Assembly: GCA_002724395.1 (NCBI GenBank)
Contig: PBOR01000017.1
Coordinates: 163,998 to 210,165, forward strand
DNA from: Rhodospirillaceae bacterium
Lineage (GTDB): Bacteria > Pseudomonadota > Alphaproteobacteria > UBA8366
Reading direction: 5' to 3'
DNA: 46,168 nt
The notes beneath the pieces are model-generated. The model was not told the DNA's origin, made no database searches, and saw only the letters and a list, made by a program, of their open reading frames with translations. Position 1 is the stretch's first letter; each line of letters opens with the position of its first letter. This document shows, one piece after another, positions 6,689-35,803 of this stretch. The translations under genes and the position numbers were made by a program.

Positions 6689-6731
6689 CCCGGCAAAGCC
6701 TGCCAAAACTAGGCAGGCTAAACCTGCTTCT
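6689..6731 (+). promoter_or_regulatory. Two FlbD-type enhancer-like motifs upstream of flgF
   Basis: Copy 1 (6689-6707) reads CCCGGCAAAGCCTGCCAAA. Copy 2 (6715-6729) reads AGGCTAAACCTGCTT. Both match the recurring motif CGGCAAAACCTGCCCAG found upstream of other sigma-54 promoters in this window. They lie about 50-90 bases before the flgF -24 element, a normal distance for a sigma-54 enhancer. Binding by FlbD is inferred, not seen. Confidence 0.5.
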
Positions 6732-6778
6732 GTTTTATCGAAAATCGTAACGTATTGATTTATATCAAATATATTATT

Positions 6779-6794
6779 TGGCACAGCCCATGCA
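6779..6794 (+). promoter_or_regulatory. Sigma-54 promoter for flgFGAH
   Basis: TGGCACAGCCCATGCA has a perfect TGGCAC -24 box and a GC at -12, with GG and GC 10 bases apart. One base of the TTGC box differs (ATGC). The predicted start is near 6804, giving a leader of about 40 bases to the flgF ATG. Confidence 0.72.
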
Positions 6795-6843
6795 ACTACT
6801 AGTTTGGAGGATTTTTTAGCTAGAGAGGACGGCTTAGGGGCTC

Positions 6844-7602
6844 ATGGAAAACACAATATATATCGCGCTTTCCCGGCAAATGGAGTTGCGCCGTCAAATG
6901 GGCGTTATTTCGCACAATCTCGCAAATATGAATACACCAGCCTACAAAAGCGAGAAGATGGTCTTTGTCGAGTACCTTTCAAAAGCAAAGACAGGATTTG
7001 ACCGACTAGAAAACGGAAGTGGTGATGGCAGATACGCTTTTGTCCGAGCTGGTGGTCAAGCGCGTAATTTGTCTGAAGGCCCAATGAACAATACAGGGAA
7101 TGTTCTTGACGTAGGTATCTCCGGGGAGGGTTACTTCGTAGTCGAGACAGAACAGGGAAAACGTTACACTCGCCACGGTCGTTTCCAATTGAATCAGAAT
7201 AGCGAGCTCACCAATTCTCAAGGCGATGTTGTTCAAAGTATTGGGGGGGGGAGCATCACTATTCCCGTTGAGGCAACAAGAATTTCTATCGCAACTGACG
7301 GCACTGTTGCGAATGGCGATGAGACTATAGGACAGATTGCATTGGTCACATTTGATGATCAGCAAAAGCTCAAACGCGAACCAAACAATCTCTACACGAC
7401 TGACCAGGCTGAAAAACCGGTAGAAAAAAGTAATATCATTCAAGGCATGCTCGAGCAATCAAACGTCAACGCAATCATTGAAATGACCCAGATGATCAAC
7501 ATTCATCGCTCTCATGACAGTGTGAAGCGCATGATAGATGATGAACACAAACGTATAGAGCGAACGGTTAACCGGCTCGGTAGACCTAGCCAAGGGAACT
7601 AA
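6844..7602 (+). CDS. flgF: FlgF, proximal rod protein
   Basis: Rod subunit of 252 aa at the base of the distal rod. The N-terminal flagellar rod motif is clear (MGVISHNLANMNTPAYKSE), followed by the hook/rod core (VGISGEGYFVVETEQGKRYT) and the C-terminal helix (EQSNVNAIIEMTQMINIHRS). The ATG at 6844 follows AGGGG at close spacing. It is the first gene of the flgF-flgG-flgA-flgH unit under the sigma-54 promoter at 6779. Unusually, a run of nine G (7243-7251) encodes a Gly-Gly-Gly in the middle of the gene. Confidence 0.95.
   Translation: MENTIYIALSRQMELRRQMGVISHNLANMNTPAYKSEKMVFVEYLSKAKTGFDRLENGSGDGRYAFVRAGGQARNLSEGPMNNTGNVLDVGISGEGYFVVETEQGKRYTRHGRFQLNQNSELTNSQGDVVQSIGGGSITIPVEATRISIATDGTVANGDETIGQIALVTFDDQQKLKREPNNLYTTDQAEKPVEKSNIIQGMLEQSNVNAIIEMTQMINIHRSHDSVKRMIDDEHKRIERTVNRLGRPSQGN
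7243..7251 (+). repeat. Nine-G homopolymer inside flgF
   Basis: Nine consecutive G read as three Gly codons in frame. Gaining or losing one G would truncate FlgF. This is the longest mononucleotide run noticed in coding sequence in the window. Confidence 0.85.
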
Positions 7603-7657
7603 CGCCCATGAAAACTGACATTAAAACAATCAACAGGACCCGTTTGAGGATAAAAAT

Positions 7658-8443: not shown

Positions 8444-8456
8444 TGGACAAACAAAC

Positions 8457-9431: not shown

Positions 9432-9444
9432 AGAGTTAATACTT

Positions 9445-10206: not shown

Positions 10207-10307
10207 GGCGAGCTAAAACATGCGCCCACAGTAATTGAATGAATTGAGAGTTTTGCGCCGGTCTTTTCCTCTCCTACTCCTCCCAAAGCGCTAGACCGTC
10301 GCTAAAA

Positions 10308-10340: not shown

Positions 10341-10371
10341 ACATTTACAATACTCTATTGCCACTCTTGAT

Positions 10372-10921: not shown

Positions 10922-11341
10922 TTAGCGACGCAACTTGGCCAATTCTACACGTGCTCGCAATTCAATCTCATCGAGAATTTCATTAAGTCCCGGATCAGTA
11001 ACTTCACCACGGCCTTCTTCAACCATTTTTGTGATGGTTTCTAAGTCCCCCGACGGAATAACACCCCCAATTAAGCCAATACGCAGCATCTCTAGCTTAT
11101 CTAAAATGCTTTCGCCCCATCGCTGACCTTGGCGTTTACCACCGTCAATGGCGTCATCAACTTCCTGAATAGAAAGAAGCGCATCGACAGGCTGTGTCGG
11201 TGCAGCACCACTAACACCGGCAACACTGCCAGCCGCCTGATCTAACGCCTCGCTAAACTGCTCACCACTACTCTTACTAGCTTTCCCAGCAGATTTTACG
11301 GGTGACGATGGACGGGCAGACCCTGTTCTTTCAATCTTCAT
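10922..11341 (-). CDS. fliX: FliX, flagellar assembly checkpoint regulator of FlbD
   Basis: A 139-aa protein with a Ser/Ala-rich start (MKIERTGSARPSS), a central QPVDALLSIQEVDDAIDG stretch and a helical C-terminus (GESILDKLEMLRIGLIGGVI; NEILDEIELRARVELAKLR) typical of FliX. In Caulobacter, FliX couples early basal-body assembly to FlbD activity. The gene is divergent from flgI, as in Caulobacter, and flbD is present at 41000. The two enhancer-like motifs at 11403-11441 lie between fliX and flgI, so FlbD could act on both. No sigma-54 promoter was found for fliX. Confidence 0.9.
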   Translation of the reverse strand: MKIERTGSARPSSPVKSAGKASKSSGEQFSEALDQAAGSVAGVSGAAPTQPVDALLSIQEVDDAIDGGKRQGQRWGESILDKLEMLRIGLIGGVIPSGDLETITKMVEEGRGEVTDPGLNEILDEIELRARVELAKLRR

Positions 11342-11402: not shown

Positions 11403-11441
11403 AGGCAATCTTTGCCGGTCAACTCGGCAGAGCTTGCCCTA
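11403..11441 (+). promoter_or_regulatory. Two FlbD-type enhancer-like motifs between fliX and flgI
   Basis: AGGCAATCTTTGCCGGT (11403-11419) and CGGCAGAGCTTGCCCTA (11425-11441) are two tandem near-palindromic copies of the recurring motif, 22 bases apart (about two helical turns). They sit 80-120 bases upstream of the flgI -24 element. The tandem arrangement on one face of DNA fits an oligomeric sigma-54 activator. Confidence 0.6.
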
Positions 11442-11520: not shown

Positions 11521-11536
11521 TGGCATGACCTTCGCT
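11521..11536 (+). promoter_or_regulatory. Sigma-54 promoter for the flgI unit
   Basis: TGGCATGACCTTCGCT has a good -24 box. The -12 box has GC at the correct 10-base spacing but reads TCGC instead of TTGC. The predicted start near 11547 leaves about 33 bases to the flgI ATG. Confidence 0.62.
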
Positions 11537-15676: not shown

Positions 15677-15688
15677 GAGATTCAAAAA

Positions 15689-16743: not shown

Positions 16744-18846
16744 ATGGTGGCACCCCCCCCAGAAGATCCGCCAGAAGGCTATTTCACCGGATCGCCAAAC
16801 GAAGTGCTCAATCACGTATTAGAATGTATAGATACCGGTGAGCACGATCGCGCGGAGCTAATCATCGCACAATTGATTAGCAACTTTTCCGCTAATGCCG
16901 AAGCATGGAACCTTAGGGGCATAAATAGCCTCAAAGGCGGCAATCCAGAACTCGCAATTCGATGTTTTGCTGAAGCCTCTAAATTGGATTTATCCAGTGC
17001 AGTTTATGCATCCAATCTTGGCAATGCGCTAGGAGTCGATAACCGCTGGGAAGAGGCCGCCGGTGCATGGTCACGTGCTGTATTGCTCGCTCCTAGCGTA
17101 AGCGCCTATCAGCTCGGCCTTGCCACCAGCTTGCTGCATAACGATCAAATCGAAGATGCCTTAGAACATGGCGAAAACGCTCTGAAAAAAGAGCTACCGG
17201 CAGCAAATGCAATTTTTACCTTCGCTAAAGCCTTATTCGATACCAAGCAAACCGAAGCGGCTATCAATGCTTATGAATTAGGGTTAACCCGGGAGCCTAA
17301 CAATATCGAGGGCCAATACCAATTGGCGCTATTACTGCAAACCATAGGCGACCAAAAAGGCGCGATAGAGCGTTATCGATCGCTCTTAAAGGCTAACCCG
17401 GACCATGCCGAAGCACTTTGCAATCTATCAGCCGCTGCACGAGATACCGGCGCGTTAGACGAGGCGATTCGCTACGGTGAACGGGCACTGACCCTTCGGC
17501 CCAAATTTGCTGACGCACACAACAACCTCGGCCTGGCGCTATGCGCCGCAGGTAAGATTGATAAGGCAATCGACCATTTCAAGACCGCCCTTAAAATAGC
17601 TGGGAAGCGATACGAAATACTCAACAATCTCGGCGTCGCCCAACAAGCTTGCGGCAATTTTAAAGCTGCTGAAAGCACCCTACAACAAGCCCTCAACCTT
17701 GAAGAACCCGATATTGCTCGCCCCGCTGCGGAACGCAATCTTGGCAATGTTTTGCGCCAAATGCAGCGCTTCGACGAAGCAATTATATATTATCGTATAG
17801 CACTGGAAAAAAGTCCGCTGGACTTTGCAACATATGGAAATCTCGGTTTAACGCTATTAAACCTTAATAAACCGGACGACGCCATTTCGGTTTACGAAAA
17901 AGCGCTTTCGCTGAATCCAGATCACGCCCAGCTCCGCAAAAGCCTTGGGATTGCCCAGCTTCTAAACGGCGCCTTTGAGGAGGGCTGGCACAATTACGAA
18001 GCTCGCTTGGAAGCACATCAATCAAAAAATTCTAGTAAGCGATGGGACGGCCAGACCCGGGCCAAGTCTTTATTAGTCCAAGCAGAGCAGGGCTTTGGCG
18101 ACACCATACAATTTTGCCGTTACATCCCATCACTATACAACTGCGCTGATAAAATAATTTTTGAATGCCAACCAGCACTTAAAGACCTTATGAACTCGCT
18201 TGATGAAAATATTGTTATTCGATCGCCCAAAGATCCAATAGTAGAGGCGGATTATCACATACCACTGTTGAGCCTTCCAATGATTAACGACACCAAATTG
18301 GAAACAATACCGTCAGCCGTACCTTACCTAAGGTCAGATCAGGACTTGGCTCAAATATGGCAAAATAAATTTGATGAACAGAGACCCAAAGTTGGCCTCG
18401 TCTGGTCAGGAAACTCAAAACGACAAGACGATTGGATGCGGTCCTGTCCAGCAGAATTTCTGCATACTATTTTGGATGTCGAAGGCTGCCACTTTGTAAG
18501 CTTACAGAAAGAAGGTGTACCCCAATCGCTGGCCCCACTTCACGACCTTTCCTCAGAGCTAACAGATTTCTCACAAACCGCCGCCGCCATTATGGCGCTT
18601 GACCTGGTGATTACCGTCGACACAGCAGTAGCTCATCTAGCCGGCGCCCTTGGAAAACCTGTTTGGGTTATGTTGGGCTATACGGCCGATTGGCGCTACT
18701 TATTGAAACGTGAAGATAGTCCCTGGTATCCTACTATGCGACTACGTCGCCAAACAAAACCCGGCGATTGGGACGGGCTCACAATAAAACTCGCCTCTGA
18801 ACTAAAAAAATGGATTTTAGTAGAGTGCCCGCAGGGGGAAATTTAG
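16744..18846 (+). CDS. TPR glycosyltransferase (FlmG-like), candidate flagellin glycosyltransferase
   Basis: This 700-aa fusion has about ten tetratricopeptide repeats (residues 40-420, for example AEALCNLSAAARDTGALDEA and ADAHNNLGLALCAAGKIDKA) joined to a C-terminal GT9/heptosyltransferase-like GT-B domain. The latter includes VGLVWSGNSKRQDDW near residue 550, DLVITVDTAVAHLAGALGKP near 620 and the ending DWRYLLKREDSPWYP. Caulobacter FlmG, which glycosylates flagellin, has the same TPR-plus-transferase plan, and flagellins lie 2 kb away. Codons 4-6 contain an 8-C run that could cause frameshift switching. The start ATG has only a weak ribosome site. The next gene begins 2 bases after the stop. 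Confidence 0.82.
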   Translation: MVAPPPEDPPEGYFTGSPNEVLNHVLECIDTGEHDRAELIIAQLISNFSANAEAWNLRGINSLKGGNPELAIRCFAEASKLDLSSAVYASNLGNALGVDNRWEEAAGAWSRAVLLAPSVSAYQLGLATSLLHNDQIEDALEHGENALKKELPAANAIFTFAKALFDTKQTEAAINAYELGLTREPNNIEGQYQLALLLQTIGDQKGAIERYRSLLKANPDHAEALCNLSAAARDTGALDEAIRYGERALTLRPKFADAHNNLGLALCAAGKIDKAIDHFKTALKIAGKRYEILNNLGVAQQACGNFKAAESTLQQALNLEEPDIARPAAERNLGNVLRQMQRFDEAIIYYRIALEKSPLDFATYGNLGLTLLNLNKPDDAISVYEKALSLNPDHAQLRKSLGIAQLLNGAFEEGWHNYEARLEAHQSKNSSKRWDGQTRAKSLLVQAEQGFGDTIQFCRYIPSLYNCADKIIFECQPALKDLMNSLDENIVIRSPKDPIVEADYHIPLLSLPMINDTKLETIPSAVPYLRSDQDLAQIWQNKFDEQRPKVGLVWSGNSKRQDDWMRSCPAEFLHTILDVEGCHFVSLQKEGVPQSLAPLHDLSSELTDFSQTAAAIMALDLVITVDTAVAHLAGALGKPVWVMLGYTADWRYLLKREDSPWYPTMRLRRQTKPGDWDGLTIKLASELKKWILVECPQGEI
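16753..16760 (+). repeat. Eight-C homopolymer at codons 4-6 of the TPR glycosyltransferase
   Basis: ATGGTGGCA is followed by eight C (Pro-Pro-Pro in frame). Reading with seven or nine C reaches a stop within about 40 codons in both cases, and no in-frame ATG follows closely. The position is typical of slipped-strand phase-variation tracts in surface glycosyltransferase genes. Confidence 0.85.
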
Positions 18847-20980: not shown

Positions 20981-21805
20981 TTAGCCAAAGAGAGCCAAAA
21001 TTCCTCGTTCGCTCTGAGACGCAAGAGCCAACGAATTAATACCCAATTGCTGACGTGTTTGCAGAGCAAGCAAGTTAGCACTTTCTTCATTGAGATCGGC
21101 CAGAGTTAATTTACCTGAACCATCCTGGAGGGTATTGATCAAGCTATCGGAGAAGTTCAATCGCGTTTGAAGAACCGTTGAGTTCGAACCCAAAGTCGAA
21201 GCATTGGTGCGCAATTCGGTCAACGCATTACCAATTGCTGTGAGAGCAACATTAATATTAGCAGCAGCACCAAAGTTATTAGCCGCGTTAGCAACATTCA
21301 AACCGGTAGCAGCCGTTGTCGAGTCAAGGCCAGTAACAGTCAAAGTATTGGTGCCGGTTTCATTAAAAGTAACCACCAGGTTGTCCGGTGTCGCTTTTAA
21401 CAAATTGGTACCGTTGAAACTGGCATCTTTGGTGAGATTATCGATTTGAGTCAGAATATCATTAAATTGCTTTGCGAGAGTAGACCGTTCTGTAAGAGAA
21501 CCCGTAGCCTTAGCATTGTTTGCAAGCCCCCTAGCCTGCTCTACTAATTCCGTAATGGCGTCGATGCCGTCTAGAGCTGCATTTACAGTCGAGATAGATA
21601 CATCAATATCACCACGAAGTTTGGAAAAATCATCTGCCCGGTTTGACAATGCGCGAGCAGTAAAAAACGCACCCGCGTCATCAACAGGGGAGGAAACCCT
21701 TAAACCAGAAGCTAGACGATCCTGTGTTCGATCAATGAGACCAGACGATCGTTGAAGGGTTAAAAGGTTTTGCCGGACAGCCTTTGTTAGGGTTACATCT
21801 GCCAT
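20981..21805 (-). CDS. fliC: Flagellin 1
   Basis: Filament subunit, 274 aa, in the compact D0/D1-rich form usual for alphaproteobacteria. The N-terminus (TLTKAVRQNLLTLQRSSGLI, RTQDRLASGLRVSSPVDDAG) and C-terminus (LNEESANLLALQTRQQLGIN, SLALASQSERGILALFG) are canonical. The short middle (about 125-190) is Asn/Thr/Ala-rich and offers many Ser/Thr sites for O-glycosylation. It has its own sigma-54 promoter (21930-21944) and terminator. It is a close paralogue of flagellin 2 and shares a 59-base perfectly identical block with it (21459-21517). The symbol is generic. Confidence 0.97.
   Translation of the reverse strand: MADVTLTKAVRQNLLTLQRSSGLIDRTQDRLASGLRVSSPVDDAGAFFTARALSNRADDFSKLRGDIDVSISTVNAALDGIDAITELVEQARGLANNAKATGSLTERSTLAKQFNDILTQIDNLTKDASFNGTNLLKATPDNLVVTFNETGTNTLTVTGLDSTTAATGLNVANAANNFGAAANINVALTAIGNALTELRTNASTLGSNSTVLQTRLNFSDSLINTLQDGSGKLTLADLNEESANLLALQTRQQLGINSLALASQSERGILALFG
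21459..21517. repeat. 59-base block identical in both flagellin genes (copy in flagellin 1)
   Basis: Positions 21459-21517 are base-for-base identical to 22609-22667 in flagellin 2, including all third codon positions, while sequences on both sides differ at many synonymous sites. It encodes the conserved NAKATGSLTERSTLAKQFND segment of domain D1. This is a mark of recent gene conversion or recombination between paralogues. Confidence 0.8.
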
Positions 21806-21929
21806 GGTAGACTCCTATTCTAGGATTATGTGATCAACCGCCTTCTGCGGCTGCAAACACCTTGAATTGGCTTCTCCATTTCAAGGCCCCAATTCTATCT
21901 AGAACGGGCTAGGTTCGACTTGTTAGGAA

Positions 21930-21944
21930 GCAACTGCCGTGCCA
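21930..21944 (-). promoter_or_regulatory. Sigma-54 promoter of flagellin 1
   Basis: The minus strand reads TGGCACGGCAGTTGC, a full match to TGGCACG-N4-TTGC. It is the best sigma-54 site in the window. The predicted start near 21918 gives a leader of about 113 bases. Confidence 0.88.
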
Positions 21945-22043: not shown

Positions 22044-22082
22044 CGGCAAATTTTTCCCACCGGCGGGAACTTTCTGCCCAGC
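22044..22082 (-). promoter_or_regulatory. Two FlbD-type enhancer-like motifs upstream of flagellin 1
   Basis: On the plus strand CGGCAAATTTTTCCCAC (22044-22060) and GGGAACTTTCTGCCCAG (22065-22081) are two adjacent, imperfect copies of the recurring motif, 21 bases apart. They lie 100-140 bases upstream of the flagellin 1 -24 element. The tandem spacing of about two helical turns repeats the pattern seen before flgI. Confidence 0.5.
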
Positions 22083-22130: not shown

Positions 22131-22958
22131 CTACCCGAATAGCGCCAACACAGCCCGTTCGCTTTGCGAAGCAAGCGCGAGAGAGTTTAAACCTAATTGT
22201 TGCCGAGTCTGAAGCGACAACAAATTAGCACTTTCCTGGTTGAGATCAGCTAATGTAAGCTTTCCTGCACCTTCCAACAAAGTATTCGAGAGATCTTCAG
22301 TAAAATTCAATCTGGCTGTCAGCACACTACTATTTGAACCTAGGGTCGACGCATTGGCGCGCAACTCCACCAACGCAGCATTAACCGCAGTAATTGCTAC
22401 ATTAACATTCGCAGTCGAGCCAAAGTTATTGGCCGCGTTAGCGATGTTCAAGCCGGCAGCAGCCGTGGTCATATCGAGACCAGTTATCGTAAGTTTACTT
22501 GATCCATTCTCGTTAAAATCAACAATTAGATTGTCCGGTGTCGTTTTTAAAAGATTGGTACCATTGAAACTAGAATCTTTAGTCAAATCATCGATTTGAC
22601 TCAGAATGTCATTAAATTGCTTTGCGAGAGTAGACCGTTCTGTAAGAGAACCCGTAGCCTTAGCATTATTGGCAAGACCTTTCGCCTGTTCAACCAACTC
22701 GGTAATAGCGTCAATACCATTTAAGGCAGAGGTAATTGTGCTGATACCAAGATCGATATTTTCTTTAATACTGTTCAAATCGTCCGCTCTAAATGTCAAC
22801 GCACGCGAGCTAAAAAAAGCGCTTGCATCATCTTGAGCGGAATTGACCTTCAAACCAGTAGCAAGTCGATCTTGCGTTTGGGTGATCACACGATCAGTCT
22901 TCTGCAAGGTCAATAAATTGGTTCGAACTGCAGCCGATAGGTTAACTTTGTCTGCCAT
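22131..22958 (-). CDS. fliC: Flagellin 2
   Basis: Second filament subunit, 275 aa from ATG 22958 (MADKVNLSAAVRTNLLTLQK); the frame extends upstream to 22985 but the family start is at MADK. D0/D1 ends are canonical (RTQDRLATGLKVNSA-type start and SLALASQSERAVLALFG end). It differs from flagellin 1 mainly in D1 and at scattered positions, yet shares a 59-base identical block (22609-22667). It has a separate sigma-54 promoter and upstream motif, so both flagellins should be late genes. Whether the two occupy different filament zones cannot be told from sequence. The symbol is generic. Confidence 0.97.
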   Translation of the reverse strand: MADKVNLSAAVRTNLLTLQKTDRVITQTQDRLATGLKVNSAQDDASAFFSSRALTFRADDLNSIKENIDLGISTITSALNGIDAITELVEQAKGLANNAKATGSLTERSTLAKQFNDILSQIDDLTKDSSFNGTNLLKTTPDNLIVDFNENGSSKLTITGLDMTTAAAGLNIANAANNFGSTANVNVAITAVNAALVELRANASTLGSNSSVLTARLNFTEDLSNTLLEGAGKLTLADLNQESANLLSLQTRQQLGLNSLALASQSERAVLALFG

Positions 22959-23063
22959 ATGCCGTGTCCTTTCTGACTGTGACAATGGGCGCCAACAGCA
23001 GCAAAAGGTCTTTGAAGAAGCGACCGAATTATCGCAGTGAGCGCCGAACTTACTTCATTAAGC

Positions 23064-23164: not shown

Positions 23165-23181
23165 GGGCAAGTCTTGCCAAC
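23165..23181 (-). promoter_or_regulatory. FlbD-type enhancer-like motif upstream of flagellin 2
   Basis: GGGCAAGTCTTGCCAAC is nearly palindromic (GGCAAG-T-CTTGCC) and matches the recurring motif in either orientation. It lies about 90 bases upstream of the flagellin 2 -24 box and close to the 3' end of the aminotransferase gene (stop at 23212). Confidence 0.58.
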
Positions 23182-23211: not shown

Positions 23212-24312
23212 TCATATAAATGATTCCAAGCTTGACCGAACGCGGCCAATCTCCTGTGCCGTCAGACCGGAAAAAAACGGTAAACCCAGCACACGCCTTC
23301 CTAATTTTTCAGTCACAGGCAATTCGCCACTCGAACAGTTTTCAAATGCTGGCTCCCGATGGCAGCCTTTACTCCACCATTGGCGGACCTCGATGCCTTG
23401 CGCGTTCATAAAGGTAATAGCATCATCAAGGTTACCTTCAGGAAGTAAAATATTGAATGTTGATTTCGCAAAAGTAGCATCCGAACCAGGTGCGAATACG
23501 ATCCCATCAAGCTCTTGCAGAGCCTCAGCATAAAGTACCGAACAGTCAATATTTTGGCGACGCGTTCTTTCCCATTGATCCAAGGCCGCGTGCCCAACTG
23601 CTGCACTATATTCGCTAAGCTTGCCATTGAAACCCATGGATTCTGCACTTCGTCTGCCTCTAAATCCAAAATTCGTATGGAAGAATAGCTCACGTGCCCG
23701 GTCCACATCTTCGCAAATAATGAGACCACCTTCACCAATACCAAGTGGTTTGGTGGCATGGAGACTCACAATTGTTGGGCATCGCCCCGGCGTGATCGTG
23801 TCAATACCGGCAGCAGCATCTATGATTACAGGAACGCCGGTTTCTAGTTCAATCTTATCCCAAGCAGCGACATTCAAGGGGGCACCAAATGGCGACACCG
23901 GTAGCACCGCTCGCACGTTTTCACCCAAACCAGCTAAATATTGACGTACATTATCGGGATCCAATCCCCAACTAACCGGGTCCACATCAACAAAATGCGG
24001 CGTGAGACCGGCAGCCACGGCTGCATGAGCGCTTGCAGCAAAAGTAAAAGAAGGCATGACGCAAAGCCCCCTTAATCCCTTCGCGGCTTCTCGCAATGCC
24101 ATGGTTAAACCAAGCGTACCATTTGCTGTTAACACTACATTCTCGGGCCCTACGGAAAACATATTGGCAAACCGAGACCGTAATCGTTGCTCCAACGGAC
24201 CATAATTGCTGTACCACTGGTTTATATCAATTTCAGAAAGATAGGGCACGACTGCCTCAGCATTAGGCAATCGCGGTCGCATAAGTGGAATATCGAATTT
24301 GTCCACGTCCAT
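23212..24312 (-). CDS. DegT/DnrJ/EryC1/StrS-family PLP sugar aminotransferase
   Basis: A 366-aa enzyme predicted to put an amino group on a nucleotide-linked keto-sugar. The PLP lysine is K188 in SLHATKPLGIGEGG, and the PLP-ring aspartate is D165 (VPVIIDAAAG). The SFTFAASAHAAVAAGLTPHF and FVDVDP motifs are typical of the family. Start ATG 24312 is preferred to an upstream TTG (24330) because AAGAGAG lies just before it. The gene is downstream of a sigma-54-like site (24378-24393) and next to flagellin 2, suggesting synthesis of the sugar that decorates flagellin (compare Caulobacter FlmB). No dehydratase partner (FlmA/PseB-like) is in the window. Confidence 0.88.
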   Translation of the reverse strand: MDVDKFDIPLMRPRLPNAEAVVPYLSEIDINQWYSNYGPLEQRLRSRFANMFSVGPENVVLTANGTLGLTMALREAAKGLRGLCVMPSFTFAASAHAAVAAGLTPHFVDVDPVSWGLDPDNVRQYLAGLGENVRAVLPVSPFGAPLNVAAWDKIELETGVPVIIDAAAGIDTITPGRCPTIVSLHATKPLGIGEGGLIICEDVDRARELFFHTNFGFRGRRSAESMGFNGKLSEYSAAVGHAALDQWERTRRQNIDCSVLYAEALQELDGIVFAPGSDATFAKSTFNILLPEGNLDDAITFMNAQGIEVRQWWSKGCHREPAFENCSSGELPVTEKLGRRVLGLPFFSGLTAQEIGRVRSSLESFI

Positions 24313-24364
24313 AAAGCTCTCTTCAACCAATTGAATAAATATACGACACTAGAATTGATCAGAC

Positions 24365-24601
24365 TCAGTCGAAGTGTTGCAAAAGCACGGCCAACTCATT
24401 GTCAAATGATAATACAACAGGTCGCCTATGATTTTGTTTAGCTTGCCGAAATAAATGCATCATCGAGCACCAAGGGCTATCACTGCGGCGTCTCAACCGT
24501 CGCCAATCGGGGCCGTGTGATACCACCAACCAAACTGATTTCCCCATGCCGCCCGCGCCGATATTTCCCAAGAGCCTTGTGCGAAGTGGAGATGACAGCA
24601 T
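24365..24601 (-). pseudogene. Remnant of a TPR-linked GT9-type glycosyltransferase C-terminus
   Basis: A 78-codon frame resembles the last 75 residues of the FlmG-like protein at 16744. It has GMGKSVWLVVSHGPDWRRL against GALGKPVWVMLGYTADWRYL, followed by RRRSDSPWCSMMHLFRQAK against KREDSPWYPTMRLRRQTK. The upstream sequence does not continue the transferase (no DTAVAHL region), and the N-terminal part and TPRs are missing. It is therefore a decayed fragment, most likely left by duplication and deletion of a second FlmG-type gene. An active small protein is unlikely but not excluded. Confidence 0.68.
24378..24393 (-). promoter_or_regulatory. Sigma-54-like promoter before the aminotransferase
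   Basis: The minus strand reads TGGCCGTGCTTTTGCA, with GG-N10-GC spacing and a perfect TTGCA -12 box. The predicted start near 24368 is about 55 bases before the ATG at 24312. It lies inside the glycosyltransferase remnant and lacks a clear upstream enhancer-like motif, so a chance match is possible. Confidence 0.45.
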
Positions 24602-24684
24602 CTTCCATACTGTAACTTTACAGTGGCTTTGCCGTAAGCGAAACAGACTTGGTACTAATGGCCGGGCACCGCTATGATCTATAT

Positions 24685-25335
24685 ATGACCGTAGTCGCCG
24701 TAATGCAGCCTTATTTTATGCCCTATGCGGGCTATTTTCGCTTATTCGCAGCGGCGGACCTGGTAGCAATTTTCGATTGCGTACAATTTCCGCGGCGCGG
24801 CTGGGTTCACCGCAACCGTCTACCCAGTCGCAAAGGTGAGGCACGGTGGCTCACGCTACCACTGCAAAAGGTAAGGACTAGCACCCAAATAAGTAAACTC
24901 AGGTTTACAGGCAATGCTCCTGCAGAAATGGTTCGCCGAACACACAAATTTCCATCTCTAGATAATTGCCCTATCGACTTGCTGAGCACAATTCAAGACA
25001 CTACACCTCCAGTCGCTGAATATCTCGAGACAACCCTCGGCCTAACTTGTCACATGCTGAACCTGCCATTCGTAACTGTCAGGACGAGTACCTTGGACAT
25101 CTCACCTAAATTGAAAGGTGTCGACCGGGTTATTGCAATCGCTAAAAACTTAGGCGCCAAAACTTACTTAAACGTACAAGGCGGACGAGACATCTACGCT
25201 ACAGAAGCTTTTGAAACACACGGCATGTCCCTGCGATTTTTAAATGATTGGCAGGGTTCGAATTGGAGCCTACTGCACCGCCTCTCCTGTGAACCTGCCG
25301 ATAGAATCGCCTCAGAAATTCGCTCTCAGTGTTAG
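24685..25335 (+). CDS. WbqC-family protein
   Basis: A 216-aa protein with the WbqC opening (VAVMQPYFMPYAGYFRLFAA, then DCVQFPRRGWVHRNRL) and WLTLPLQKVRTSTQI. WbqC-like proteins accompany amino-sugar modification genes in O-antigen and flagellin glycosylation clusters; the biochemical role is not firmly known, although transfer of acyl or amino-acid groups to amino-sugars has been suggested from context. Start ATG 24685 is chosen because the family begins at MTVVAVMQP. It is divergent from the aminotransferase, across the glycosyltransferase remnant. A 249-base segment without features follows. Confidence 0.85.
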   Translation: MTVVAVMQPYFMPYAGYFRLFAAADLVAIFDCVQFPRRGWVHRNRLPSRKGEARWLTLPLQKVRTSTQISKLRFTGNAPAEMVRRTHKFPSLDNCPIDLLSTIQDTTPPVAEYLETTLGLTCHMLNLPFVTVRTSTLDISPKLKGVDRVIAIAKNLGAKTYLNVQGGRDIYATEAFETHGMSLRFLNDWQGSNWSLLHRLSCEPADRIASEIRSQC

Positions 25336-25584
25336 TACTTAACAGCCTGGACCATGAAATCGTGCAAGCTATACAACTACTCCCTATCTGAGAATTTTCT
25401 TCGCACGGTCCGCAACTTTTGTCTTAACTGATTTATAAAAGCCCTTATCGCTTTCAAAGCGGACAGTGGGCTCCTTGACATCGATCAGGCACACGATCAA
25501 CTATTAGCAAGTATAAAAAAATCGGCATCTTTATTTTGACCAGCCAGATGGTGACGTCGAGCCTCTCGGAAAAATGATTACATA

Positions 25585-27657
25585 TCAATTACTTAGTGGT
25601 ACCGATCTCAGAAATTTAGCGAGATCCTTCACTACACGTTGATCGTCAAAGATAATCGGGCATCTTTCAAGTATTTTCTCAGACACAGATGTTCGAAAAT
25701 CAGCGTCTCGGCCTAATCGAATTGCGATTTCAACATATTCTTTCGGCGAACCAGCTACGCAATCATCAATCTTCATATGCTGATAGAGGGCCATTGCCGC
25801 TCGCCCACGAAGAAATTTGCCTGGAAAAGTTACAATAGGAAGGCCCGCAGAAAAGCCTTGATAGTTTGTGTTGCCACCACCAAACGGCCAAGTGTCCAAC
25901 ATTACATCTGCCAAAGACATTATATTTAAAAACTCCTGCCAACTCACTCGTTCCAGGACAACAACACGGCAGATTGCTTCTCCAAACAACGGCATCCAAC
26001 GCTGCAATAATTTCTCCGTCCAAATCTTTGCATTTCCATGAAAGATCACCAGTTGCCCAGTAGGATCACCTTGTAAGATTTTGGCTAAGGCAGCGTCCAT
26101 TTCCGGATGAATTTTGAACAAACTTTGCGGGCAAAGATAAAGGTTCCCATCCTCCGAGATTCCATAATTGGATCGACATTTACGTTCGTCAATAAATGGA
26201 CGACGATAACATGTAGGCATGCCGCCTAATCGAATTAAGGTTTCAGTATAATGATTTGCAGCATCATCAGGTTCAGCAGAATCATTGGAGAGGTAATAAT
26301 CCATTTGCGGCAGGCCACTTGTAACTGGGTGCCCCCAGAGGACGCACTGGACCGGCGCTAAGCGAGCATAAGCCATAAAATAGCTGAGAGGGTCCATGCC
26401 AATGTCGGCATAAATTAAAATATCCAGTTGGGCTAATTCAATTTTTTGGCGGGCAATTATCAAATCATATGGCAGACTTAGAACCTTATGTGTCTGACTT
26501 GCAAGGGTATTCCAGACATCATCTTCATCGCCAGAAATTGTTATCAACACAAATTCAAATTCGTCAGTACTCAGTCCAGCCAACAAGCCCTCAACGGTGA
26601 AACCAACTGCGTGACTTCGTAAATACCGTGAAAAAAGCCCTACGCGGCGCCTACTACTGCCGGTCTCTGAAGGCTTCTGACAATGGGCTGCGGTAAAACA
26701 AAGCGAAGGACAGGCTTGCTGCCAAAAAGTCGCTTGGTTTTCCATAATTCGTCTATCGTTTTCACCATGATAAGCAAGATGAAAATTCATCACCGGTACT
26801 TCTAAGGGGTCCCCGGGCAAAGAAACTCGCTTCTCGATTAGAAGGCCAAAACCCTCCTCGAACCGCTGCCGCCAAACTGCAATATCTGCAACCGACTTTG
26901 GAATCACCGGCATCAAGCCAGCCCGAGCAATTAAGAAACGCGGCTCAGGTCGCGTAGAAATTAACACCTCAAGCGTTTGATCTGCTTCATCGATGCTACC
27001 TGCCGCCGCCAACGCAAGTGCCTTGTTGTAGCTTGCCTCTATAAAGTCGGGCCGAAGCTCTAACGCACGCTTAAAGCTCTCTATTGCCTGGGCATAATGT
27101 CCTCGGCGCTTCAATAAATTACCAAGATTATTGTGCACCTCTGCCAAAGAGGGATTGATCTCCAGTGCCTTTTCATAGCTCAACTGTGAGTCCACAATGT
27201 GACCAAGCCTCACAAGCACTTTTCCTCGGTTAGCATAAAGCGTTGCAGCCTTAGGATTACGCGAGAGTCCCTGATCCAAAATTTGGAGCGCCTCATCATA
27301 TTGCCCAATGGCATCGAGTAATACGCCAAAATTATTGTACGCATCCGTATAGTTCGGGTCACATTTGATTGCCATTTTGTAATGTTCGACCGCTGGGCCA
27401 ATAGTTCCCAAAGCAGCAGCCACAACGCCTGCATGTGTATGAAACATGGCCTGATCAGGCAGTAGGGCTATTGCTTTATCAATAGCGGGTGCAGCTTCGG
27501 CAAACCGTCCTTGCGCATGGAGGGTCAAACCGAGCATATGGAGTGCATCGGGCTGTTCGGGCTCCCTTTCAAGGACCTGTCGAAAAACCTTCTCAGCCGC
27601 GACGTGATTGCCCGCCTGCCGCAGTGCTAACCCTTTTTCTAGAATTACCTTAACCAT
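25585..27657 (-). CDS. TPR-GT41 (SPINDLY/OGT-like) glycosyltransferase
   Basis: A 690-aa protein with six to seven TPRs (residues 1-225, such as AEVHNNLGNLLKRRGHYAQA) joined to a GT41-like catalytic region. Recognisable parts are GLFSRYLRSHAVGF (about residue 337), VQCVLWGHPVTSGLPQMDYY (about 435) and LDTWPFGGGNTNYQGFSAGL (about 585), the donor-binding loop. GT41 enzymes transfer a sugar (GlcNAc in the classical case) to Ser/Thr of proteins in the cytoplasm. With the flagellins nearby, flagellin is the likely acceptor; the sugar is unknown. It is the second TPR transferase in the window, unrelated in its catalytic domain to the FlmG-like protein. Confidence 0.88.
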   Translation of the reverse strand: MVKVILEKGLALRQAGNHVAAEKVFRQVLEREPEQPDALHMLGLTLHAQGRFAEAAPAIDKAIALLPDQAMFHTHAGVVAAALGTIGPAVEHYKMAIKCDPNYTDAYNNFGVLLDAIGQYDEALQILDQGLSRNPKAATLYANRGKVLVRLGHIVDSQLSYEKALEINPSLAEVHNNLGNLLKRRGHYAQAIESFKRALELRPDFIEASYNKALALAAAGSIDEADQTLEVLISTRPEPRFLIARAGLMPVIPKSVADIAVWRQRFEEGFGLLIEKRVSLPGDPLEVPVMNFHLAYHGENDRRIMENQATFWQQACPSLCFTAAHCQKPSETGSSRRRVGLFSRYLRSHAVGFTVEGLLAGLSTDEFEFVLITISGDEDDVWNTLASQTHKVLSLPYDLIIARQKIELAQLDILIYADIGMDPLSYFMAYARLAPVQCVLWGHPVTSGLPQMDYYLSNDSAEPDDAANHYTETLIRLGGMPTCYRRPFIDERKCRSNYGISEDGNLYLCPQSLFKIHPEMDAALAKILQGDPTGQLVIFHGNAKIWTEKLLQRWMPLFGEAICRVVVLERVSWQEFLNIMSLADVMLDTWPFGGGNTNYQGFSAGLPIVTFPGKFLRGRAAMALYQHMKIDDCVAGSPKEYVEIAIRLGRDADFRTSVSEKILERCPIIFDDQRVVKDLAKFLRSVPLSN

Positions 27658-27742
27658 TCTTCCGCCAGTCTATCACTCGCCAAGGCCTATCGTTCAATCG
27701 GATAATTTGCGTCAGCGCCTTACACTGGTTTAGGGTTTCACT

Positions 27743-28405
27743 ATGAAACCCCTTATCATCTTCGGTATAGGTCAAATAGCAGAAGTAGCGCACTACTATT
27801 TCTCCGAGGACAGCTCATATGAAGTCGCAGGCTTTACGGTTGATGACGCCTACCTAGACCGCTCGGAATTATTTGGCCTACCTGCGGTGGCGTTCGAAAA
27901 TGCCACAGAACAGTTTCCTCCCGGAGAATTTGATTTCTTTGCAGCCGTCGGATACGACAAAATGAACTCGGTGCGACGTGAAAAAGTAAAGCTAGCTCAA
28001 ACAGCGGGATATGATATCGCCCATTACGTTTCCAGCCGCGCTTTCGTTTGGAAAGACTTCGAGCCACGCCCCAATTTATTTTTACTTGAAGATAATACTA
28101 TCCAACCACATGCCAAAATTGGCGAAAACGTAACCTTGTGGAGCGGCAACCATATCGGCCATCATGCCGTAATTTGCGATGATGTGTTCCTATGCAGTCA
28201 CGTGGTTGTCTCAGGCGCAGCACGTATTGGGCGCGGAAGTTTTCTTGGCGTAAATGCAACTGTCGGCGATAATATCACTATCGGAGTTGAAAATGTAATT
28301 GGTGCCGGCGCCCTCGTTCTCAAGGATACAGCCGACCAAGCCGTTTTCCCCGCCAAACAAACAGAAAAATCCAAGGTACCGAGCAACCGACTGAGATCAC
28401 TTTGA
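27743..28405 (+). CDS. NeuD-family sugar O-/N-acyltransferase
   Basis: A 220-aa protein with an N-terminal Rossmann-type PglD/NeuD domain (PLIIFGIGQIAEVAHYYF) and a C-terminal left-handed beta-helix of hexapeptide repeats (about residues 105-205: IGENVTLWSGNHIGHHAVIC; GAARIGRGSFLGVNATVGDN; VIGAGALVLKD). Such enzymes use acetyl-CoA or a similar donor to acylate an amino- or nonulosonic sugar. The catalytic-type His in the GHHAVI turn is present. Its stop overlaps the ATG of the propeller gene (TGATG), so the two are translationally coupled and probably act in one step sequence after the aminotransferase. Confidence 0.85.
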   Translation: MKPLIIFGIGQIAEVAHYYFSEDSSYEVAGFTVDDAYLDRSELFGLPAVAFENATEQFPPGEFDFFAAVGYDKMNSVRREKVKLAQTAGYDIAHYVSSRAFVWKDFEPRPNLFLLEDNTIQPHAKIGENVTLWSGNHIGHHAVICDDVFLCSHVVVSGAARIGRGSFLGVNATVGDNITIGVENVIGAGALVLKDTADQAVFPAKQTEKSKVPSNRLRSL

Positions 28406-29406: not shown

Positions 29407-30102
29407 ATGACCGGCCCGAAAGTAAACCCCGCCTATTACGAAATCGTCGAGCATTATGAAAAATGCCTCGAAACTCATGGCGACACCTATTTGGGTGTCG
29501 ATTGGCCAAACAAAGAAGATGCTGCAACCCGCTACAAAATTATGTTGGGGGTTATAGCCGAACCCGCCCCTCGTCCTTTGAAGTTGCTTGATTTTGGCTG
29601 TGGAGCCGGCCATTTACTTGAATTCATCGAAGCCGAGAAACTCAACCACATAGATTATATTGGATTAGACATTTCACCAAAATTCATAGCATTATGCCGC
29701 TCAAAATGGCCTGAACGGGACTTCATCGAAACCGATATTTTAATCGACCAAAATCAACTACCGAGAGTCGATTATCTCGTCATGAACGGCGTTTTCACTG
29801 AAAAACGAGGTTTAGCCTATGGTAAAATGTTCGAATATATGCGCAATGTAATGCGCATAGCCTGGCCATCCGTGGGAAAGGGCATGGCAGTGAATGTAAT
29901 GTCAAAGAGTGTAGACTGGGAGCGGAATGACCTTTTTCACCTGGGTAAAACTGAATTCGCCGCCTTTATAAAAAGGGACCTTTCCACGCATTTAAAATTT
30001 TACTTAGATTATGGCCTCTACGAATATACGGCTTATATATATCGCGACCACCCTAAAACCTGCCCGGCAAAACCTGCCCAGCTGGGACGTTTCACTGGGT
30101 AA
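29407..30102 (+). CDS. Class I SAM-dependent methyltransferase
   Basis: A 231-aa protein with motif I LLDFGCGAGHLLEF (about residues 60-73), the acidic residue ending strand beta 2 (IDYIGLDISPKF) and a motif IV-like VDYLVMNGVFT. The target (sugar hydroxyl, protein Lys or small molecule) is not visible. Position at the end of the sugar-modification genes suggests methylation of the flagellin glycan or flagellin itself. ATG 29407 follows TTGGGGG; an upstream TTG (29377) is less likely. A weak hairpin (29322-29337) separates it from the propeller gene. Its last codons (30063-30081) coincide with an enhancer-like motif for the downstream flaG promoter. Confidence 0.82.
   Translation: MTGPKVNPAYYEIVEHYEKCLETHGDTYLGVDWPNKEDAATRYKIMLGVIAEPAPRPLKLLDFGCGAGHLLEFIEAEKLNHIDYIGLDISPKFIALCRSKWPERDFIETDILIDQNQLPRVDYLVMNGVFTEKRGLAYGKMFEYMRNVMRIAWPSVGKGMAVNVMSKSVDWERNDLFHLGKTEFAAFIKRDLSTHLKFYLDYGLYEYTAYIYRDHPKTCPAKPAQLGRFTG
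30063..30081 (+). promoter_or_regulatory. FlbD-type enhancer-like motif upstream of flaG, inside the methyltransferase 3' end
   Basis: CCCGGCAAAACCTGCCCAG is the best-formed copy of the recurring motif. It encodes Pro-Ala-Lys-Pro-Ala-Gln in the methyltransferase tail and lies about 115-135 bases before the flaG -24 element. Confidence 0.55.
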
Positions 30103-30418
30103 TTTCTGCCTATTAGTGCGCTAATTACCTACTGGATTCCGGTGTGCGTGTAACCGTTTTTTAACTAAATTGTTTTTTTTTAAAGCCTTAAGTTAGTGGC
30201 ATAGCGGTTGCATCTTCAATGCGTGGAAAGCCGATCATGGTCATCAAACATAACTACGGCCCATCGGATTTCCGTTAGCGTTTCTCGCAGCATGGAAGAA
30301 TTTTCATAAAACGAGGGACAGAGCGAAACCCAAATGCGCAGCTCGTTAAGAGGGAATGAAACGAGAAAGCAGCGGATTGTCTATCAGGAGATGGCAGAAG
30401 GCCAAATCGGGGATTAAA
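30103..30418. promoter_or_regulatory. flaG upstream region
   Basis: These 316 bases contain no gene. They include a 9-T run (30173-30181), the flaG sigma-54 promoter at 30197-30212 and a predicted leader of nearly 200 bases, the longest of the set. An in-frame ATG at 30356 exists but its ribosome site is too close. Confidence 0.5.
30197..30212 (+). promoter_or_regulatory. Sigma-54 promoter for flaG
   Basis: TGGCATAGCGGTTGCA has TGGCA at -24, TTGCA at -12 and exact GG-N10-GC spacing. The predicted start is near 30223. Confidence 0.8.
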
Positions 30419-30994: not shown

Positions 30995-31011
30995 CGGTAA
31001 TATCTGCCGTA
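30995..31011 (+). promoter_or_regulatory. FlbD-type enhancer-like motif upstream of fliK
   Basis: CGGTAATATCTGCCGTA is a near-palindromic variant (ACGGTA/TGCCGT) of the recurring motif, about 100 bases before the fliK -24 element. Confidence 0.48.
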
Positions 31012-31107: not shown

Positions 31108-31123
31108 TGGCCCGTTGCTTGCT
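31108..31123 (+). promoter_or_regulatory. Sigma-54 promoter for the fliK-flgD-flgE unit
   Basis: TGGCCCGTTGCTTGCT has TTGC at -12 and exact GG-N10-GC spacing. The predicted start near 31133 gives a short leader of about 27 bases to the fliK ATG. Confidence 0.68.
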
Positions 31124-31159
31124 CTTTAAGAGGCAGACAAAAAAATTTCGGGTACCACA

Positions 31160-33049: not shown

Positions 33050-33072
33050 TGCTTAAAGCTGGAGTTTAGATT

Positions 33073-33768
33073 ATGTCAGATATAGCAGCCCTTTCTTCAA
33101 CCGCTAACGCTCTCGCTGGCGGCTCAACGTCGGATTCTCGAGCAGCTCTTTCGAAACTAACCTCAGATCTCGATAATTTTCTGACTATCCTTACCGCCCA
33201 ACTTCAACATCAAGACCCGCTGGAGCCGCTCGATACCCATGAATTCACCAACCAGTTGGTACAATTCAGTTCCGTCGAACAGGCCATACAGCAAAACAAG
33301 AACCTTGAGAGTATTATCGAACTAAATCAGAACAATATGGCTATTTCGGCGGTTTCTTACATCGGTAAAGAAGTATCCGCTGCCGGTAAATCCAACATGC
33401 TAGTAAACGGCAAGGCAACATTCAGCTATACTCTACCTGAAGCCGCTCAAGCTGGAACAATATCGATTACCAACCAAGCCGGTGATGTAGTATTTTTTGG
33501 GCAGGCAGAGAGGACCCCGGGCACCCATGCATTTGTCTGGGACGGCAAATCCAGCAGCGGCGTGGCTCAACCGGACGGCCAATACCAAATTAATGTGAAC
33601 GCTGTGAATTCTGATGACCAGCCAATCTCTCCATCTTTCGGCATCACCGGTAAAGTCACCGGTGTCGAATTCGACGGCTCTACAGCAATCCTGAACATCG
33701 GCACCGTGCCGGTGTCCCTGAATAGCATCACAAACATTAATGAACCTGAGCAAGATCCGGCAACGTAG
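33073..33768 (+). CDS. flgD: FlgD, hook cap protein
   Basis: Hook-capping scaffold, 231 aa. The N-terminal signature is plain (LTSDLDNFLTILTAQLQHQD, PLEPLDTHEFTNQLVQFSSV). The FlgD FnIII/tudor-like part follows (GTHAFVWDGKSSSGVAQPDG; SFGITGKVTGVEFDGSTAIL). GGAG lies 8 bases upstream of the ATG. It is 23 bases after fliK and 95 before flgE, the standard hook-assembly order. Confidence 0.96.
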   Translation: MSDIAALSSTANALAGGSTSDSRAALSKLTSDLDNFLTILTAQLQHQDPLEPLDTHEFTNQLVQFSSVEQAIQQNKNLESIIELNQNNMAISAVSYIGKEVSAAGKSNMLVNGKATFSYTLPEAAQAGTISITNQAGDVVFFGQAERTPGTHAFVWDGKSSSGVAQPDGQYQINVNAVNSDDQPISPSFGITGKVTGVEFDGSTAILNIGTVPVSLNSITNINEPEQDPAT

Positions 33769-33863
33769 AAACTTAGCCGCAGAAAATCATAGCCGTGACC
33801 CCAGTCACAGGGAAAACAAAACCAGCCGCCCCTAGTAAGGCGGGAGATAAGAGGTAAACAAAT

Positions 33864-35201
33864 ATGTCGCTTTTCGGTGGAATTCGTTCAGCAGTATCCG
33901 GGCTTTTATCGCAAAGTCAGGCCCTCGGTCAAATTGCCGATAATATCGCGAATGTGAATACAACTGGCTTTAAAGCCATTCGGCCGCGCTTTTCGACCCT
34001 AGTCACAACCCAGTCTTCGCTCACTCTGCATTCACCTGGTGGCGTGCAGTCCAAAGTAACCCGAGAAATCGATGCTCCGGGCCTCCTAGAAGCATCCGAC
34101 AGCTCCACAGACCTCGCAATCGGCGGTCAGGGTTTTTTCGTCGTAAATAGTAATGCGAATGGTACTGGCGATTTTTCTTTTACACGCGCCGGTTCTTTCC
34201 GCCCCGATAAAGATGGAAATTTAGCCAATACGGGTGGCTTTTTCTTATTTGGTTTCCCAGTTACCAATGGCGTAGTCCAGCCCACTAATATTTTGACTCA
34301 ATTAGAAGTTGTTAATGTCGCGGCCTCATCCGTTGCCCCTATTGCTACATCTACAGTGGACCTTGGCGCGAATTTGCAATCTTCAGCAGCGACCGGGGCA
34401 ACATTTGACCTAGCAGTCGGTGTACTCGACAAACAAGGCGCTCCTGACCAATTAACCTTTAGATTTACAAAGCTAGCCGCTGCTAATACGTGGCAATTAT
34501 CATCAACCTTGGCCACGCGAAGTTTTATTAACACCGCGGGTAATGCAGTTGTAAGCGGTACCGGCACTAATATTTTAGGACAAGTAGTCTTCAACGCAGA
34601 TGGCACTCTAAACTCTACTAACCTTACAGGTAGGACAATCAATTCAGCCCTAAAGACCGGAAACGACGGGTTCACATTTGATGTTGATCACGACAATAGC
34701 TTTGCTACTGGCTTAGGCACTGGTGCTACTGATGATCGTGTAACAATAACGCTCGACTTAGGCACTGTGAACACAACTACGGGACTTACACAATTCGAAG
34801 GAGCATTTACGCCAAACTTTGTGAATACAAATGGACGACAGTTTGGTTCACTAACCGGTGTGAGCGTATCCGCAGACGGCATAATAAACGCTAATTTTGA
34901 CAATGGCGAAACCCGCGATCTCAACCAAATTCCGCTCGTCACCTTTACTAATCCCAATGGTTTGGTTGAACAAACAGGCAATGTCTATCAAGAAACTACA
35001 AATTCAGGCTTCGCGGTGATAAAAACTGCTAAAACGGGAGGTGCAGGTGTAGTTGCGCCCTCGGCTCTTGAAGCCTCAACAGTGGATATTGCGGATGAAT
35101 TTACGCGTATGATCATTACTCAACGGGCATTCTCAGCCAATACTAAGGTTATCACAACAGGCGATGAGATGCTCGATGAATTAGTCAGGATCATCCGATA
35201 G
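33864..35201 (+). CDS. flgE: FlgE, hook protein
   Basis: Hook subunit, 445 aa. The N-terminus is typical (GIRSAVSGLLSQSQALGQIA, DNIANVNTTGFKAIRPRFST) and the core contains STDLAIGGQGFFVVN. The C-terminus carries the rod/hook helix (DIADEFTRMIITQRAFSANT, KVITTGDEMLDELVRII). The central part (about 150-350) is the Thr/Asn-rich hook surface domain. It ends the fliK-flgD-flgE unit; no obvious intrinsic terminator follows. Confidence 0.95.
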   Translation: MSLFGGIRSAVSGLLSQSQALGQIADNIANVNTTGFKAIRPRFSTLVTTQSSLTLHSPGGVQSKVTREIDAPGLLEASDSSTDLAIGGQGFFVVNSNANGTGDFSFTRAGSFRPDKDGNLANTGGFFLFGFPVTNGVVQPTNILTQLEVVNVAASSVAPIATSTVDLGANLQSSAATGATFDLAVGVLDKQGAPDQLTFRFTKLAAANTWQLSSTLATRSFINTAGNAVVSGTGTNILGQVVFNADGTLNSTNLTGRTINSALKTGNDGFTFDVDHDNSFATGLGTGATDDRVTITLDLGTVNTTTGLTQFEGAFTPNFVNTNGRQFGSLTGVSVSADGIINANFDNGETRDLNQIPLVTFTNPNGLVEQTGNVYQETTNSGFAVIKTAKTGGAGVVAPSALEASTVDIADEFTRMIITQRAFSANTKVITTGDEMLDELVRIIR

Positions 35202-35786
35202 TAAATTACATCAGTGATTAAAAATTGGGCCCATAACGCGCGTAAAGCACGTCGTTTTCTGCTAGCTATTACCTGAAAGCACCTAAAAACATATGCAGGT
35301 TTAGATATTGCTGATACAAATTTGGATATGCACTTTCTAACCCACGGCGGGCCGAATTACCGCTGCTAATCTGTACCAAGGCAGGCACCTATCATTGGCT
35401 TGTTCGTCGTAAAGGATTGGTGTTATTCAACAATAGAGGCGGTACTCTAAGCCTAAAATAAGCCTGTAATTATTATGAACTAAGGTAAAAAAGGTTTGAA
35501 AGTACAGGTTAAGCCATACACCGTCAGGACTAACTGGATCTGCGAGTAACCCGTCTTAATCAGTTCCAGATGCCATCTCTCATCATACCAAGGCACACAA
35601 CAAAAACCCTACCCTGCAGCTAACAACCGATTTTTAGCTATCGCTCCCGGTTTTATTACCAAATCAAAGCCAAATATTCACTACACTAAGAAATCGCGTT
35701 TATAGAACTATTTTTTGACTAACAACCTACTAATTAATGTTTTTCCTTAAGATTCGCTTGCCTTATCTTAAAATATTTGGCTTAGT

Positions 35787-35803
35787 CGGCAACTTTTGCC
35801 CAG
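35787..35803 (+). promoter_or_regulatory. FlbD-type enhancer-like motif upstream of fliF
   Basis: CGGCAACTTTTGCCCAG matches the recurring motif closely (GGCAA/TTGCC palindrome) and lies about 90 bases before the fliF -24 element. Confidence 0.58.

Follow-up and report, generated by a model that had tools for sequence, protein, structure and literature searches.

The window analysed here is a stretch of 46,168 nucleotides from a Rhodospirillaceae bacterium (GenBank assembly GCA_002724395.1, contig PBOR01000017.1, positions 163,998 to 210,165; C22:163998-210165 in our numbering), whose draft genome comprises 3.41 Mb in 75 contigs. It carries a flagellar gene cluster with fliM and fliL (minus strand), flgF, a FlgG-like gene at 7658, flgA, a gene at 9445, and the genes for FliX, flgI, flgJ, flgK, flgL, FlaF, FlbT, two flagellins, FlaG, fliK, flgD and flgE. 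After flgE come fliF, fliG, fliH, fliN, a MotA/PomA-like gene, FlbD and flhA. Several of these names are based on domain matches, matches below cut-off and gene order. A short inverted repeat (dyad) recurs in the cluster, and we propose, with a probability of about 0.72 and on the basis of sequence comparison, that it is a binding site of the regulator FlbD, which would activate the late flagellar genes from enhancers and repress the early cluster running from fliF to flbD. The genes central to this proposal are as follows.

10922-11341, minus strand: fliX, encoding the FlbD partner (PF10768, 129 bits against a cut-off of 25)
35978-37708, plus strand: fliF, head of the cluster fliF-fliG-fliH-fliN-motA-like-flbD-flhA
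41000-42340, plus strand: flbD, encoding the predicted binder, downstream of fliF within one gene row (NCBIfam NF050807, 750.1 bits against a cut-off of 750)

Motif discovery was carried out by expectation maximization (EM) with one site per sequence, using the 200 bp upstream of seven sigma-54-like sequences, namely those of flgF (6779), flgI (11521), the two flagellins (21944 and 23078, minus strand), flaG (30197), fliK (31108) and fliF (35891). The search returned GGCAA-N3-TTGCC with a log-likelihood of 63.4, as compared with a mean of 44.6 and a maximum of 52.3 in 30 dinucleotide shuffles. These shuffles had used fewer starts than the data, and a rerun at equal settings gave 61.1, as compared with a mean of 45.1 and a maximum of 50.3 in 60 shuffles. 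A palindromic model at equal settings likewise exceeded its shuffles (45.5 against a maximum of 39.1), as did a search without the fliF region (56.3 against a maximum of 45.7 in 40 shuffles), and the dyad beat every shuffle in all three EM models when each was run with 30 shuffles. The motif found de novo is a 15-bp dyad with an odd centre, CGGCAA-N3-TTGCCG, written CGGCAANNNTTGCCG. A symmetric matrix of 15 positions was built from eight sites and tested by leaving out each promoter's own sites. All eight strong sites (15-mers starting at 6691, 11403, 11425, 22044, 23165, 30065, 30995 and 35787, with 15.1-19.2 bits) then fell within ranks 1-11 of about 46,150 window positions. It is very improbable that the recurrence reflects chance or the shared ancestry of nearby DNA. 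Some single matches do lie inside genes, as chance would allow, but the shuffles and the left-out ranks contradict this explanation, as do the conservation of the sites while their flanks turn over and their recurrence across the class, described below.

Seven of the eight strong sites lie 81-125 bp (centre to promoter start) upstream of six sigma-54-type promoters, those of flgF, flgI, the two flagellins, flaG and fliK. The features are listed below, with the dyads given without strand and with ranks taken from the left-out test.

6677-6691: weak partner dyad at flgF, 9.9 bits
6691-6705: strong dyad CGGCAAAGCCTGCCA at flgF, 17.4 bits, rank 7, 81 bp upstream of the promoter
6779-6794, plus strand: sigma-54-like promoter of flgF, TGGCACAGCCCATGCA
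11403-11417: strong dyad AGGCAATCTTTGCCG at flgI, 16.7 bits, rank 9, 111 bp upstream of the promoter
11425-11439: strong dyad CGGCAGAGCTTGCCC at flgI, in tandem with the preceding dyad, 18.6 bits, rank 5, 89 bp upstream of the promoter
11521-11536, plus strand: sigma-54-like promoter of flgI, TGGCATGACCTTCGCT
21929-21944, minus strand: sigma-54-like promoter of the first flagellin gene (20981-21805), TGGCACGGCAGTTGCT
22044-22058: strong dyad CGGCAAATTTTTCCC at the first flagellin, 17.6 bits, rank 7, 107 bp upstream of the promoter
22065-22079: weak partner dyad at the first flagellin, 9.3 bits
23063-23078, minus strand: sigma-54-like promoter of the second flagellin gene (22131-22985), TGGCATGTCCGTTGCG
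23165-23179: strong dyad GGGCAAGTCTTGCCA at the second flagellin, 18.1 bits, rank 7, 94 bp upstream of the promoter
30065-30079: strong dyad CGGCAAAACCTGCCC at flaG, 19.2 bits, rank 1, 125 bp upstream of the promoter
30097-30111: weaker partner dyad at flaG, 11.9 bits
30197-30212, plus strand: sigma-54-like promoter of flaG, TGGCATAGCGGTTGCA
30995-31009: dyad CGGTAATATCTGCCG at fliK, 15.1 bits, rank 11, 106 bp upstream of the promoter
31108-31123, plus strand: sigma-54-like promoter of fliK, TGGCCCGTTGCTTGCT

Two strong tandem sites, 22 bp apart, occur at flgI only; they begin 76 bp (the 11403 dyad) and 98 bp upstream of the divergent fliX. At flaG, the first flagellin and flgF, one strong site is accompanied by a weaker partner. 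Of the eight, the fliK site scores lowest, and in its region the palindromic EM models favoured a different place.

The first-pass annotation of this DNA had read by eye a recurring 17-base near-palindrome at ten places, several of them tandem pairs and all upstream of one of eight sigma-54 promoters, and had called it a probable FlbD enhancer. The recurrence is borne out by the EM discovery against shuffles and by the left-out ranks, and motif discovery on 200 bp upstream of the promoters, which that annotation had suggested, yielded an enriched dyad with seven promoters used. The 17-mer did not hold as a consensus, having two matches within three mismatches; the true unit is the 15-bp dyad. 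Eight of the ten places carry strong sites, but the one at 22065 is weak and that at 6715 is not among the 45 best positions, whereas the partner dyads at flgF and flaG had been absent from its list. Tandem pairs of strong sites are confined to flgI. Seven sigma-54-like sequences, not eight, could be paired with sites; the placement stands for six of these promoters and is doubtful for fliF. The enhancer interpretation thus survives at the six promoters, where it fits and is conserved, with FlbD as the predicted binder and FlbD, FliX and sigma-54 all encoded, but not as the main role at fliF.

The dyads and promoters were compared across nine genomes of the family, the window's own genome included. 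A dyad with a sigma-54-like sequence was found at flgF in 8/9 genomes, at flgI in 9/9 (with two dyads in all nine), at the first flagellin in 9/9 and at the second in 8/9, both flagellin queries having matched one gene in G002, G003 and G006. Where the gene was found, the pair was present in 5/6 genomes at flaG and in 5/5 at fliK. The misses were due to a missing dyad at the second flagellin in G009 and at flaG in G003, and to the flgF gene itself not being found in G010. The control genes flgK, a TPR gene and flaF showed no such pair (0/9 family genomes each), and the further controls flgD and flgE gave three weak dyads (9.1, 9.1 and 9.7 bits) and no correctly ordered pair. Among 50 sigma-54-like sites in 65 loci of relatives, 16 had a dyad of at least 14 bits within the 200 bp upstream, as compared with 1 of 50 in the downstream control; the background was 111 of 5311 windows.

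The genome encodes the proteins that enhancer-dependent activation would use. Besides the FlbD orthologue and FliX, there is one match to sigma-54 (PF04552, 223.6 bits). The receiver domain of FlbD falls slightly under the Pfam cut-off (28.4 against 30.2 bits), and the most similar FlbD among the named genomes, at 97% identity, is that of a Rhodospirillaceae bacterium metagenome-assembled genome. The recognition helix, GNRTHAA-x-ILGISIRTLRNK, was read in 59 of the 60 FlbD loci given (L172 was not read) and is identical in 58 of the 59, suggesting that FlbD is the likely binder of the dyads. The genome's NtrC- or NtrX-like activators, or an unrelated regulator, are improbable as binders in its place. 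Two strong sigma-54-activator matches other than FlbD do exist in the genome (two further matches are weak, at 25-28 bits), but these two lie together on another contig, and the fliF dyad tracks FlbD across genomes. NtrC-like proteins were rejected as binders because their recognition helix differs, as seen in L002.

The eighth strong site stands apart from the others, at the head of the early cluster, where the following features were found.

35787-35801: strong dyad CGGCAACTTTTGCCC upstream of fliF, predicted FlbD repression site, 18.6 bits, rank 7
35806-35839, plus strand: promoter-like block of TTAAC, TTCATT (35811-35816), a 17-bp spacer and TACATT (35834-35839)
35891-35906, plus strand: doubtful sigma-54-like sequence TGGCGACGCTTTTGCA, 97 bp from the dyad, 9.8 bits against 10.9-18.5 for the other promoters

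To place this site among relatives, 70 loci were given, of which 2 were too close to an edge and 6 had no usable fliF start, leaving 62 scored fliF regions that include some species twice (e.g., L053 and L075). A dyad of at least 13 bits was present in 51 of the 62 and one of at least 11 bits in 56, and all nine family genomes had the dyad. For a comparison by FlbD content, 289 genomes were examined; 40 FlbD loci were picked non-randomly, by score and spread over families, and 38 of them had a usable fliF. The controls came from 60 genomes without an FlbD-level match. A fliF match of some kind turned up in 15 of them, and scores were computed for 13 fliF genes in 12 genomes; a third match in G067 and the partial ones in G039, G210 and G284 were set aside. 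A dyad of at least 13 bits was found in 30 of 38 FlbD-bearing draws, as compared with 1 of 13 FlbD-less fliF genes (Fisher p = 8e-6), and one of at least 11 bits in 34 of 38 against 3 of 13 (p = 2e-5). The single FlbD-less exception reaching 13 bits is a draft genome in 350 contigs. These counts suggest that the flagellar checkpoint has long and widely included an FlbD site at fliF.

A sigma-54-like match (at least 8 of 11 letters) stood at enhancer distance in only four of the 62 fliF regions, L053, L074 and L075 from the window's genus and L163. Since the dyad is common at fliF in FlbD-bearing genomes and such a match is this rare, a sigma-54 enhancer is unsupported as its main role there. 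In all nine family genomes TTCATT-N17-TANNNT follows the fliF dyad at a fixed distance, and the TTCATT-N17-TACATT block is probably a sigma-70-type promoter whose -35 element lies 9 bp downstream of the dyad. Because FlbD represses fliF in Caulobacter, according to excerpts of two reports (PMC3930126, PMC3096577), repression is the likeliest role of the fliF dyad, which by this analogy is most likely the counterpart of the Caulobacter repression site. Two other places were considered as sharing this arrangement and rejected. At fliX, TAAGGT stands at offset 47, as TACATT does at fliF, in the window and in G001, but seven other family genomes lack it; and fliL has no conserved promoter geometry.

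The CtrA box has the consensus TTAA-N7-TTAA, and sequences with at least 7 of its 8 letters were taken as CtrA-like. For the alignment of flanks, 6 of the 62 regions under 11 bits, 3 with less than 70 bp of left flank and 8 near-duplicates were dropped. In the 45 non-redundant regions that were left, a CtrA-like box occurred at +17 to +22 from the dyad start in 18 and at -25 to -23 in 7, so that 25 of 45 had one at either fixed offset; 300 sets of shuffled flanks gave means of 0.29 and 0.25 boxes at the two places and no more than 2 at each. The window reads TTAACTTCATTTTTA at this place, one letter off the consensus (7 of 8). A CtrA box was nevertheless rejected as a working neighbour of the fliF site here, as no CtrA was found in this genome, and for the same reason TTAAC is taken merely as part of the promoter-like block. 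The abutting boxes of the relatives resemble CtrA-activated class II promoters of Caulobacter and of the Rhodobacter sphaeroides fla2 system; excerpts of one report describe CtrA sites near the -35 of R. sphaeroides fliF2 (PMC6180460), a species reported there to be without FlbD.

CtrA starts the whole cascade in Caulobacter. In this genome, a draft in 75 contigs, CtrA was not found; five proteins with PF00486 (OmpR-type DNA-binding) are encoded, and the best CtrA score was 150 bits against a cut-off of 350. Including this genome (G000), CtrA was not found in any of the five genomes G000, G001, G008, G009 and G010, from two genera and 84-100% complete, nor in G005 and G007, which are 64-65% complete; in two relatives (L053, L055), the roughly 10 kb flanking flbD on either side contain no ctrA. 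CtrA scored above 400 bits in the family genomes G002, G003, G004 and G006, and in G002 its gene shares a contig with fliF, some 14 kb further downstream. Among the 40 FlbD-bearing genomes drawn across the class, 38 had CtrA above the cut-off, one had a shortened match of 306.5 bits and one had no match; in this sample, then, FlbD seldom occurs without CtrA. Among the papers listed by searches of open-licence literature, no title or opening of an abstract described FlbD sites in Rhodospirillales or FlbD without CtrA. Lineages with FlbD and FliX in which no CtrA is found make it testable how the cascade is triggered without the usual master regulator.

In such a lineage FlbD might instead activate its own cluster, with TGGCGACGCTTTTGCA as a working sigma-54 promoter and the fliF dyad as its enhancer, although we consider this doubtful. 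An evolutionary form of the same idea is equally tentative: with CtrA lost, FlbD might have become the top regulator, and a sigma-54 promoter at TGGCGACGCTTTTGCA might have been gained downstream of an ancestral repression site, turning a negative loop into self-activation. Three observations favour activation, the first two of which also count against repression at fliF. TGGCGACGCTTTTGCA lies at the right enhancer distance (chance about 0.012 over 46 positions); 12 of 16 columns of its block are unchanged between the two CtrA-less genera, as compared with a mean of 35% in the surroundings; and no sigma-54-like sequence was found at fliF in the CtrA-bearing G002, G003 and G006. However, just two of the nine family genomes have a sequence there that passes the 8-of-11 test. 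With a sigma-54 matrix of the family it scores 9.8 bits, its G001 counterpart 9.3, and those of the sister genus 4.7 and -0.2, whereas the remaining promoters, with each gene left out in turn, reach 10.9-18.5. The dyad itself is class-wide while 58 of the 62 fliF regions lack a sigma-54-like match at enhancer distance, and none of the nine family genomes has lost the sigma-70-type block. We therefore prefer repression by FlbD at fliF.

Under the preferred reading, the early genes fliF, fliG, fliH, fliN, motA-like, flbD and flhA would be transcribed from the sigma-70-type promoter next to the fliF site. Once the basal body is assembled, FliX would switch FlbD on, as in Caulobacter. FlbD dimers on single or tandem dyads would contact sigma-54 polymerase through looping at flgF, flgI, both flagellins, flaG and fliK, and FlbD bound to the fliF dyad, close to the predicted -35, would lower early-gene expression, that of flbD included. 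The likeness to the FlbD/ftr system of Caulobacter crescentus, as far as excerpts of its description go (PMC3930126), consists in the encoded FlbD and FliX, the site at fliF, and dyads upstream of sigma-54-type promoters of rod, ring, flagellin and hook-related genes. The present system differs in that no CtrA was found; moreover, the dyad was derived from sequence here and is likened to ftr by genes and placement, not by the ftr letters.

The computed recognition dyad can be scanned for across Alphaproteobacteria and predicts new targets. This genome has seven exact copies of the pattern CGGCAANNYYTGCC, and the window accounts for three. One outside match precedes an exact sigma-54 match by 114 bp, in front of a FlgE-like gene; the three other outside matches fall in non-flagellar genes. 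Exact sigma-54 matches (TGGCAY-N5-TTGCW) number 13 in the genome. Four are preceded within 200 bp by a dyad of 17 bits or more: those of the first flagellin and flaG in the window, the FlgE-like gene (contig C31) and a gene for an unknown protein (C65).

Several points count against the proposed role of FlbD. The three non-flagellar matches make up 3/7 of all exact matches, and with at most one mismatch the genome-wide counts of 72 and 70 exceed the 41 and 39 of the reversed control by a modest margin. The family genomes are not mutually independent. At fliF, the 13-bit threshold, below which 11 of the 62 regions score, was chosen after the scores had been seen, and two more FlbD-less controls fell just short of it (12.9 and 12.4 bits); 20 of the 45 aligned regions have no CtrA-like box at either fixed offset.

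The gene for the unknown protein (1543-2667 in L052, G000:C65) encodes 374 residues with no Pfam match, and an OmpR-type response regulator is encoded nearby on the other strand. It was found in 10 of 11 family genomes, with a sigma-54-like sequence agreeing in 9 or more of 11 letters in 10/10 and a dyad of at least 14 bits in 4/10. Judging from these sequences, it is likely an unrecognised FlbD target. The FlgE-like gene (642-1907 in L104, G000:C31), apart from the main cluster, has dyads of 19.4 and 14.0 bits and the exact sigma-54 match; the gene is followed by a recJ-like and a glpX-like gene, both on the opposite strand.

Within the window, a further dyad of 14.1 bits lies inside flhA (43446-43460) and may be due to chance. 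The MotA/PomA-like stator gene (40105-40947) stands between fliN and flbD, and two MotB-like genes (1874-3283, minus strand) lie at the opposite end of the window. Two large TPR proteins are also encoded (16744-18846 and within 23212-28405), the second with a weak glucosyltransferase-like match. Together with DegT-, WbqC- and NeuD-like genes near the flagellins, these two might form a flagellin glycosylation island.

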